Assembly: GCA_943331415.1 (NCBI GenBank) | Contig: CALQLM010000014.1 | Location: 1 to 10,491, forward strand | DNA from: Bifidobacterium breve | GTDB lineage: Bacteria; Actinomycetota; Actinomycetes; Mycobacteriales; Mycobacteriaceae | Length of the DNA stretch: 10,491 nucleotides | Direction: 5' to 3' | In this document: in pieces, positions 3,729-10,491 of the stretch | Numbering within the stretch: position 1 is the first letter of the stretch | Layout: each line of letters begins with the position of its first letter | The notes under the pieces: generated by a model | What the model saw: the letters and a program-made list of their open reading frames with translations, nothing else | Told to the model about the DNA's origin: nothing | Database searches by the model: none | Translations under genes and position numbers: made by a program

Positions 3729-6944
<3,216 letters not shown>

Positions 6945-6958
<14 letters not shown>

Positions 6959-7061
6959 CACGATTTTTCTGTTCTTCGCGCAAGCGCTCATCACCATTTG
7001 TCTGTTCTTCGCGCAAGCGCTCATCACCATTTGTCTGTTCTTCGCGCAAGCGCTCATCACC
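6945..7061 (-). repeat. 33-bp tandem repeat, 3 full copies plus 18-bp partial, at the glnX/glnH junction
   Basis: In plus-strand coordinates the copies are 6945-6977, 6978-7010, 7011-7043 and a partial one at 7044-7061. Copies two and three are identical; copy one differs at two positions (6962 and 6967). Read on the minus strand, each copy includes TGATGAGCGCTTGCGC, so the stop/start overlap linking glnX to glnH is itself duplicated. The period is a multiple of three and keeps all four ATGs (7057, 7024, 6991, 6958) in the glnH frame. The glnX frame meets consecutive TGA codons in every copy. The third frame is open and reads GDERLREEQTN repeatedly. Removing three units restores a plain TGATG junction and a normal-length GlnH, so this is probably an expansion of a single ancestral junction. 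The arrangement resembles mycobacterial interspersed repetitive units, which also sit at overlapping stop/start codons; sequence kinship to them was not established. Confidence 0.95.
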
Positions 7062-8376
7062 GGTACTCACTCATCCTCGGCCAGAGGCCCAATGCCACCG
7101 CGAGCGCCGCACCGACCGACAGCATGGCCCCGCCGACTGTCGTACCTGACAGCACTCGGCGAGCCGACGAGATGTCGTTACGTAACTGCGTGCGACTCTC
7201 CTGAATACCCTGGGACAGTGCTTCATTCAGTTTGTCGAAGGCCGGCGTCGAATCGTCCTCGCCGGTTCCCAGCGCGACCTGAGTGGCAGCCTGGTAGTTC
7301 CCAGTCTTGATGTATTCGTTGATTCGCTCGTCAGCCTGCCGCCATTTCTCCAGCAGCTGATCAGCCTGGGCCAGGCCGCTTGTGTCGATGGTGTCTTTTC
7401 GGGCGAGGTAGTCGCGAAGCTCATCACGCATGAGGTCCACTCGTTGATAGTAGGAGCGCTTGCGGACGTCCTCATCACCACGGCGGATCAGCGACAACGT
7501 TTCATCCGCCCTGGCCTGCTGCGCGGTGATAGCGAGGTTGGTCACGGTGCGCAGCGATTCGGCCGCAGTGCTTTTCGCCGCGCGGCTACCTGCTGTGGAG
7601 ACGGCCAGCGCGGTTCCGACCCAGACGATCATGACCGCGATTGCCAACCCGCCGACCACCAGACCGATATTCACCCGACGCTTGGTATGACGAGCCAGCC
7701 ACCGGTGGGCAAAGGCGCCGAACAGCAGTGTCACGGCGACGATGATGATCACCGGCGCGGGGATCTTGGTGGATGCGCTGGTCTCGGCATCGACAAGTCC
7801 CGAGGTGGCTACGTACAACCGCTGCGCGTCGGGCAGGATCGTCTGTTGCATGAGCGCCGAGGCCTCCGAGAGGTACGACGACCCGACCGGGTTACCCATT
7901 CGATTGTTGGTCCGGGCGGTCTCGATCAGTCCGGTGTAGACCGCCAGCCGTGCGTTGGTTCGTCCGAGCAGTTCGACCAGTTCCGGATCGGTCAGTCCGC
8001 TCGATGCCCTGGTGACCGCGACAGCGGCATCGGTGATGGCCTGTTCGTAGCGTTGCCGGACGGCCTGTGGCTCAGATCCGGAGATGAACGCCGTCGCCGC
8101 GGCGGCATCCGCCACCGACAGCGTGGTGTAGAGCTGGCCGGCGGCGAACGCCAGGGGTTCGGTGTGATCGAGCACGTTGGTGAGCTGCAGCTGCCGTTCG
8201 TTGATGGTCGTCGAGATGGCGAACGCGCTGAGGACGCCCAGCATTGCCAGGACGGCACCGATGGCGAGGATCCGGCCGGGAGTGGTGTTGACGAACCACC
8301 ATCTCGGGTGAGAGGGCCCGATGGGCGTCCGTTGTGCCAACGGCTCGCTCGACGGGTGCGCCAGCTCGACGGTCAC
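7057..8376 (-). CDS. glnX: Four-helix transmembrane sensor GlnX (Rv0412c type)
   Basis: A membrane protein proposed to relay the GlnH ligand signal to PknG in the cytoplasm. It is 439 residues, the same length I recall for Rv0412c. Predicted membrane segments: 35-56, 206-226, 237-259 and 411-433. This leaves two extracytoplasmic blocks of about 150 residues each (57-205 and 260-410), both rich in Ala, Gln, Glu and Arg, as in helical-bundle sensor domains. No kinase, HAMP or methyl-acceptor signalling domain is visible; the cytoplasmic parts are the N-terminal tail (1-34), a short basic loop ARHTKRR (228-234) and a six-residue C-terminus. The GTG start at 8376 is supported by GAGG 9 nt upstream. 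The TGA at 7059-7057 overlaps the first possible glnH ATG. It is first gene of the glnX-glnH-pknG set and divergent from mutT3. The name rests on synteny and topology; the signalling role is established for homologues, not shown here. Confidence 0.88.
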   Translation of the reverse strand: MTVELAHPSSEPLAQRTPIGPSHPRWWFVNTTPGRILAIGAVLAMLGVLSAFAISTTINERQLQLTNVLDHTEPLAFAAGQLYTTLSVADAAAATAFISGSEPQAVRQRYEQAITDAAVAVTRASSGLTDPELVELLGRTNARLAVYTGLIETARTNNRMGNPVGSSYLSEASALMQQTILPDAQRLYVATSGLVDAETSASTKIPAPVIIIVAVTLLFGAFAHRWLARHTKRRVNIGLVVGGLAIAVMIVWVGTALAVSTAGSRAAKSTAAESLRTVTNLAITAQQARADETLSLIRRGDEDVRKRSYYQRVDLMRDELRDYLARKDTIDTSGLAQADQLLEKWRQADERINEYIKTGNYQAATQVALGTGEDDSTPAFDKLNEALSQGIQESRTQLRNDISSARRVLSGTTVGGAMLSVGAALAVALGLWPRMSEYR

Positions 8377-9951: not shown

Positions 9952-10491
9952 GTGAAGCGGGTATCCGGTCTGGCGGTTGTCGTCGCCGTTGTGTTCGCGT
10001 TCGCCCTCGGTTGTGGCAGGTCGGCCGATACCGCGCACCCGGTGTCGGCAGGCGCCCCCGCCCGGGAATTCGCCGAGGGGCTGCGCCAGCGGGTCACTAC
10101 CGACGCGATGGTGGAGCACCTGGGTGAGCTCCAGACCATCGCTGATCGCCACGACGGCACCCGCGCGGTCGGAACGCCGGGCTATGACGCCAGCGTCGAC
10201 TATGTCGCGGGCGTGTTACGCAACGAGGGATTCGATGTCCAGACCCCGGAATTCCAGATCCGGGTATTCGAAGCCGAGAAGCCGACGTTGACGGTGGGTG
10301 GTAACCCGATCGACGCCAACGCGCTGAGCTACAGCGCCGGTACGCCCGGTGTCAGCGGCCCACTGGTTGCGGCGCCCGCCGACGAGACGCCCGGCTGCGC
10401 ACCCGCGGACTATGACGGCTTGCCGGTCAAGGGTTCGGTGGTTCTGGTTGATCGTGGTAGCTGTCCCTTCTCTGAAAAACAGGCCATCGCC
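9952..10491 (+). CDS. lpqL: Lipoprotein aminopeptidase LpqL, N-terminal part (3' end outside window)
   Basis: The first 180 codons of a predicted membrane-anchored metallopeptidase of the M28 type with a protease-associated (PA) domain; homologues are about 500 residues, so roughly a third is present and the zinc-binding catalytic part lies beyond the window. Seen: signal peptide MKRVSGLAVVVAVVFAFALGC, with Cys21 as the expected lipidation site; the lipobox ALGC has Ala rather than Leu/Val at -3, acceptable but not ideal. Then DAMVEHLGELQTIAD (51-65), DGTRAVGTPGYDASVDYV (68-85), GFDVQTPEFQIRVFEAEK (93-110) and the start of the PA domain, GCAPADYDGLPVKGSVVLVD (148-167). These match my recollection of Rv0418 closely. 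The GTG at 9952 is chosen because it yields the signal peptide and has a TANNNT hexamer seven bases upstream. It is divergent from the hydrolase gene. Confidence 0.9.
   Translation, partial: MKRVSGLAVVVAVVFAFALGCGRSADTAHPVSAGAPAREFAEGLRQRVTTDAMVEHLGELQTIADRHDGTRAVGTPGYDASVDYVAGVLRNEGFDVQTPEFQIRVFEAEKPTLTVGGNPIDANALSYSAGTPGVSGPLVAAPADETPGCAPADYDGLPVKGSVVLVDRGSCPFSEKQAIA

Follow-up and report, generated by a model that had tools for sequence, protein, structure and literature searches.

A dispersed Mycobacterium repeat of 32–33 bp at the glnX-glnH junction: stop/start placement, a predicted hairpin and a possible translational relay

The window, that is, the whole stretch of 10,491 nucleotides analysed here, contains a stop/start junction between two genes that is repeated several times in tandem. 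This raises the question of where such a repeat came from, and of how an operon interrupted in this way could still be translated.

The array in the window

The genes glnX, glnH and pknG follow one another, in this order, on the minus strand of the window. A reading made from the sequence alone had placed a tandem repeat on the glnX-glnH stop/start junction, and both TRF (6945-7061, period 33, 3.5 copies, 97% matches, score 220) and the sequence itself agree with this, a TGATG being present in each unit. The A of the glnX stop codon (TGA, 7059-7057) is common to the ATG at 7057. The features concerned are the following.

7057..8376, minus strand: glnX, the upstream gene (NF041460)
5978..7060, minus strand: glnH reading frame, open across the whole array; the downstream gene (ORF, SBP_bac_3)
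6945..7061, minus strand: tandem array of three full 33-bp units and a partial one (TRF, sequence)
7026..7058, minus strand: unit 1, whose ATG (7057) overlaps the glnX stop TGA (7059-7057) (sequence, covariance model)
6993..7025, minus strand: unit 2, same sequence as unit 1, ATG 7024 (covariance model, sequence)
6960..6992, minus strand: unit 3, two bases different from unit 1, ATG 6991 (covariance model, sequence)
6945..6959, minus strand: partial unit 4, with the 5′ arm and loop and the 3′ arm gone, ATG 6958 (sequence)
7037..7060, minus strand: hairpin predicted for unit 1, spanning −3 to +20 relative to its ATG (MFE structure, outer-pair covariation)
7004..7027, minus strand: predicted hairpin of unit 2 (sequence identical to unit 1)
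6971..6994, minus strand: predicted hairpin of unit 3 (core and outer pairs, GT/AC, as in unit 1)

The gene names previously assigned from the sequence stand: GlnX scored 816 bits against NF041460, above the cut-off of that model, GlnH is an SBP_bac_3 protein (its score against the E. coli-type GlnH model being below cut-off), and PknG carries the PknG_TPR and PknG_rubred domains. The longest pknG ORF, which begins at ATG 6056, shares 79 bases (5978-6056) with the end of glnH, and pknG may actually start at a more internal position. Elsewhere in the window, positions 10238-10269 hold a weak tandem repeat of 2.1 copies of 15 bp; an Rfam scan of the window gave no matches.

A covariance model built from relatives, without the window copy, matched unit 1 at 7033-7062 with an E value of 2e-9. 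The two identical copies that had been noticed are units 1 and 2, unit 3 differing at two bases. Four in-frame glnH starts had been proposed; those named (7057, 7024, 6991 and 6958) are right, but the count was too low, as the GlnH frame holds three further ATGs (7030, 6997 and 6925) and four GTGs (7060, 7027, 6994 and 6961). Initiation at 7057 rather than at 6958 would lengthen GlnH by 33 residues (99 nt), just as had been calculated, the 33-bp unit specifying the basic peptide MSACAKNRQMV. Judged by its basic n-region and lipobox, the mature-type GlnH precursor is likely to start at ATG 6958. The window belongs to a fragmented metagenome bin (1.89 Mb in 371 contigs, 63% completeness), and the repeat might be suspected of being an assembly artefact; the probability of this is practically negligible for the element, since isolates of several groups carry arrays at glnX-glnH (L051, L076, L100 and L114 are isolate assemblies with the unit there), and the copy number in the window is to be read as an assembly-level value.

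Dispersal, placement and reading frame

The unit is not confined to this junction. With one mismatch or fewer allowed, its 20-nt core was found in 101 of 148 congeneric (Mycobacterium) genomes, at 1–82 matches each, a backwards control pattern giving none; in a family-wide search it appeared in 21 of the 29 genomes of the genus versus 1 of 272 genomes of 30 other genera. The window's own genome holds the core (three mismatches or fewer) on two other contigs, once as three 32-bp units between the genes for an acyl-CoA carboxylase carboxyltransferase and a biotin carboxylase, and once as a single copy at a TGATG that joins a further pair of genes. The covariance model of relatives returned 12 matches in total in that genome at E values up to 1, adding some weaker copies. 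Three diverged copies there (L243, L244 and L245) are longer by one base in the loop region. A looser stem pattern was present in 94 of 146 genomes, with two control matches, and the stem was nearly invariant among the places listed.

Outside the genus, the covariance model matched 28 of 141 genomes at E values up to 0.1 (best, 0.0016); it yielded no firm relatives, and these matches are taken to be at chance level since the model was only briefly calibrated. A pattern with a shortened stem was found in 24 of 251 genomes (three matches for the control); many of these places resemble ordinary coding sequence and a few resemble relatives. Cores with a shortened stem (GATGAGCNNNNGCGAAGA) form 30-bp tandem copies in L277, L279 and L288, which come from other genera of the family, and in three genera such a core lies at what is apparently the same junction (L266, L268 and L275). 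A distant blastn search of plasmid and phage records, for which 106 bases of the carboxylase junction served as query, gave no match at E values up to 0.1, and an exact pattern gave none in viral contigs.

Placement was analysed at 128 distinct sites, made up of 75 regions from six genomes together with loci from the searches. The 75 regions are all the places listed for those six genomes (for G037, for instance, 27 of 44), genome G028 being left out; the set takes in the window site, five other glnX-glnH sites and one match from another genus. Genes around the sites were called with a codon-usage script of our own, and other GATGA sites in the same loci served as controls. The element lay between co-oriented genes at 110 of the 128 sites, versus 207 of 719 controls. 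The stop codon of the upstream gene fell exactly at +1 or −2 of the element ATG at 87 sites (49 at +1, an ATGA overlap, and 38 at −2, a TGATG overlap), compared with 22 of 744 control sites, or 21 of the 719 counted alongside relays. The mini-ORF of the last unit ended within a few bases of a downstream-gene start at 79 sites. Both ends were coupled as a relay, with the mini-ORF ending on the start of the next gene, at 66 of 128 sites versus none of 719 controls; five further sites of the 128 were coupled upstream and in frame downstream, an arrangement seen in 14 of the 719 controls, presumably at native starts. Among the 77 sites listed singly, 47 were relays, in 46 of which the stop lay at +27 to +36; ATGA (29) and TGATG (11) were the commonest relay overlaps among the sites listed. 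Against such a placement, 18 of the 128 sites were not between two co-oriented genes and 41 lacked an exact upstream overlap. No gene function common to the junctions was seen.

The length of the units appears to follow the reading frame. Of 76 steps between units in 37 arrays, 42 were of 32 bp, 24 of 33 bp, nine of 30 bp and one of 29 bp, and steps of 28, 31 or 34 bp (1 mod 3), which would break both modes of frame keeping, were absent from these 76. After a step of 29 or 32 bp the mini-ORF ends on the next ATG; with steps of 30 or 33 bp all ATGs share one frame. The periods therefore preserve one frame relation or the other; the evidence is suggestive rather than a formal test, since arrays share ancestry. 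In L177 and L203, 30-bp arrays of a CTCG-loop variant lie away from any coupled junction; they may encode protein, in the form of DERSREE-type repeats.

Most of the glnX-glnH junctions that carry the element have the first ATG of the array in the GlnH frame, as would be expected if the repeat had been selected as a peptide, an 11-residue basic and Cys-containing extension of the GlnH signal peptide. Such selection is extremely improbable: the arrays of L054 and L063 have a period of 32 bp, with a later ATG alone in frame with GlnH, and elsewhere the same DNA forms a mini-ORF out of the downstream frame.

Gain or loss at glnX-glnH and the predicted hairpin

The glnX-glnH junction was compared in 81 genomes: to the window were added the best 80 of 376 named glnH loci. 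The element was present in 29 of them, with one copy in ten, two in nine, three in seven, four in two and eight in one; L066, L067 and L095, which match only a looser unit pattern, and L107 and L117, which hold a remnant, were counted as absent. That the locus may vary between strains had been suggested from the sequence, and copy number does vary between species-level genomes (0–8 copies in the 81 genomes); the opposite expectation, one fixed copy number in all relatives, fails on the same range. Presence requires at least 18 changes on a GlnX plus GlnH tree, a quick tree that gives no direction of change, so that repeated gain or loss is apparent from it. Differences were also seen between genomes bearing the same species name: M. 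peregrinum DSM 43271 has no copy and two other isolates have two, M. rhodesiae JS60 has none and DSM 44223 one, and M. sphagni ENV482 has none and ATCC 33027 three. Filled junctions could also be set beside empty ones. L061 is 33 bp longer than the empty L062, their GlnH DNA being 98% identical; L100 is 66 bp longer than the empty L093, the extra stretch being flanked by direct repeats of CCGCTGATGAG, of which the empty site bears a single copy. As the flanks of the L061 element differ from those of its empty relative, the element may carry its outer 5′ bases along with it.

The sequence-only reading had explained the array as a slippage duplicate of the native junction. Slippage as the origin, with any similarity elsewhere being secondary, is very improbable and was rejected: the core belongs to a dispersed family found at many unrelated junctions (more than 100 other sites, only 6 of the 128 being glnX-glnH), and the empty junctions of relatives lack it. 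Slippage was retained for array length alone. The identity of units 1 and 2 and the range of 0–8 copies make slippage or unequal recombination within the array likely, and slippage probably explains copy number within it.

At glnX-glnH in L107 and L117, a different, palindrome-like insert (GTGGGGGTACCGCCC...GGGGGA) lies directly behind the TGATG and ahead of a truncated element; a second kind of repeat may thus use the glnX-glnH junction too. Contigs L049 and L068 are titled as a Bifidobacterium breve MAG; their glnX-glnH is of the mycobacterial type, and the titles therefore look wrong.

By MFE prediction the unit folds as ((..(..(((....)))..)..)), with a CUUG loop on a 3-bp stem, two tandem G.A/A.G steps flanking a single U-A pair, and two outer pairs. 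The outer pairs covary. Over 101 independent first units, positions −2/19 were Watson-Crick paired in 93 (48.5 expected) and positions −3/20 in 76 (50.6 expected), neither value being reached in 2000 shuffles; the next pairs outward of −3/20 showed no covariation over the 101 sites. The combinations present were GC/GC, GT/AC, CT/AG, CC/GG and GG/CC, and the commonest misfit was CC/GC (10). Within each of five single genomes (at least nine sites each) the −2/19 pair was significant (0–16 of 5000 shuffles); −3/20 was significant alone in only one of the five. In 30 sequences chosen for diversity, paired cells, changed cells and the covariation score exceeded those of shuffles, while the other two of the five measures, both coarser, did not. 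The inner stem gives no covariation because it hardly varies, and the variants seen break pairs. The invariance of the core is partly built in, since the sites were found with a 20-nt pattern allowing few mismatches; the covarying pairs lie outside this core. Folding energy was no better than for shuffled sequences, 119–182 of 200 shuffles folding at least as well, and DNA parameters returned the inner stem alone or another fold, without the outer pairs. From the covariation it is inferred that the hairpin may form.

A regulatory RNA, that is, a coupling or attenuation hairpin kept for its function and not self-spreading, would account both for the covariation of the outer pairs and for the placement on start codons. 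This is nevertheless improbable. At glnX-glnH the element is patchy and fast-changing (the 18 or more changes noted above), it is absent from 47 of the 148 congeneric genomes, and the junctions have no visible function in common. Moreover, G-T at −2/19 was seen four times when 21 were expected from the columns, which is unlike RNA selection tolerant of wobble pairs.

Proposed mechanism and comparison with known repeats

The preferred reading, to which a probability of about 0.72 is assigned, is that the array arose by local tandem expansion of an inserted, dispersed Mycobacterium element of about 32–33 bp, which combines a mini-ORF with a hairpin and relays ribosomes. Each unit would provide a mini-ORF whose ATG overlaps the upstream stop (ATGA or TGATG), and a hairpin of the form NN-GA-T-GA-GCG-CTTG-CGC-GA-A-GA-N'N'. 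After terminating glnX, a ribosome would reinitiate at the ATG that overlaps the stop codon. In arrays of 32-bp units the mini-ORF would stop on the next ATG, and a chain of ORFs of about 10 codons would lead to the start of the next gene; in arrays of 33-bp units, such as that of the window, the ATGs lie in one frame and each unit would place 11 residues ahead of the GlnH lipoprotein signal, unless the internal ATGs were used as starts instead. As the operon would be translatable in both modes, the element could insert and expand at coupled junctions. It tends to sit at stop/start overlaps and probably passes ribosomes on from one gene to the next, which would require that ribosomes use the mini-ORFs. 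At the window locus the likely outcome is near-neutral: any of several in-frame starts would serve for GlnH, and the length of its n-region would vary by 11 residues per copy. The peptide MSACAKNRQMV fits a signal-peptide n-region, and this may explain why in-frame copies are tolerated. Copy number might conceivably affect the GlnH:GlnX ratio, the use of the signal peptide or PknG, as had been put forward from the sequence alone.

The element may also move, beyond being spread by recombination alone. It is tentatively proposed, as a rather doubtful extension of the preferred reading, that it is a minimal mobile element, a 32–33 bp hairpin that would copy itself into stop/start overlaps via an ssDNA or RNA intermediate and be silent in translation thanks to the relay. 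The outer pairs, Watson-Crick only and formed with the junction flank, would then reflect a transposition substrate and not mRNA folding, and the stem-shortened cousins in other genera (L277, L279 and L288) would make the family an old one that has taken different forms in different lineages. The analysis found neither a transposase nor any other mobiliser, and Y1_Tnp showed no association with the element.

If the preferred reading is right, many mycobacterial genomes hold a tiny element that enters packed operons with an overlapping start and stop of its own. The glnX-glnH junction, upstream of pknG, would offer a natural series of 0–8 copies in which to measure termination-reinitiation, the clean pairs of empty and filled sites would make MIRU-like movement testable, and the copy numbers could serve as markers for environmental mycobacteria. 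Annotators should regard N-termini at such junctions as unreliable, since several in-frame ATGs are available.

Three kinds of known repeat were compared with the element. Like REP/RAYT sequences, it is a short, dispersed and imperfect palindrome lying outside or between genes; unlike them, it is placed on start codons and contains an ORF. Y1_Tnp (PF01797) was found in 26 of 146 genomes. The element was present in 16 of these 26 compared with 101 of 148 overall (tallied by hand, on the assumption that the handles of both lists name the same genomes), and several high-copy genomes, such as G027 and G123, lack PF01797. The VNTR upstream of fpg1 in M. tuberculosis is likewise an intergenic tandem repeat of variable copy number, whose length is reported to go with expression; it differs, according to excerpts of the paper describing it (PMC2734929), in its units (37 + 18 and 37 + 26 + 16 bp) and in beginning 40 bp past the upstream stop.

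Of known repeats, MIRUs come closest to the element; that it simply belongs to a MIRU class described before is unlikely. Excerpts of a 2025 review (PMC12548453) describe MIRUs as dispersed and intergenic, inserted at start codons and coupling an internal ORF with a −4 nt spacing; from these and from excerpts of PMC2734929, MIRUs resemble the element in being dispersed, tandem and operon-oriented, with an internal ORF coupled at both ends. The many loci per genome (up to 82 matches) fit this description, as does insertion at start codons with double coupling and operon orientation, a majority trait and not a universal one (the 66 of 128 sites versus 0 of 719 controls). MIRU units are, in contrast, given in the excerpted sources as 40–100 bp, or 51–77 bp for the MIRU-named loci of a primer table, versus the steps of 29–33 bp in the 37 arrays studied here. 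The literal core strings occurred in no paper found, Supply et al. 1997 on MIRUs being outside the literature searched, and a keyword search, mostly below full-text level, found no description of the element. The MIRU4 forward primer matched 0 of 396 congeneric genomes, hence no carrier of that locus entered the comparison. MIRUs reportedly lack dyad symmetry and, if they do, the covarying hairpin sets the element off from them. Set apart in this way by descriptions of MIRUs, the element is therefore called MIRU-like and not MIRU: it is shorter, it has a covarying hairpin, and in its 33-bp form it runs on, in frame, into the protein encoded downstream.
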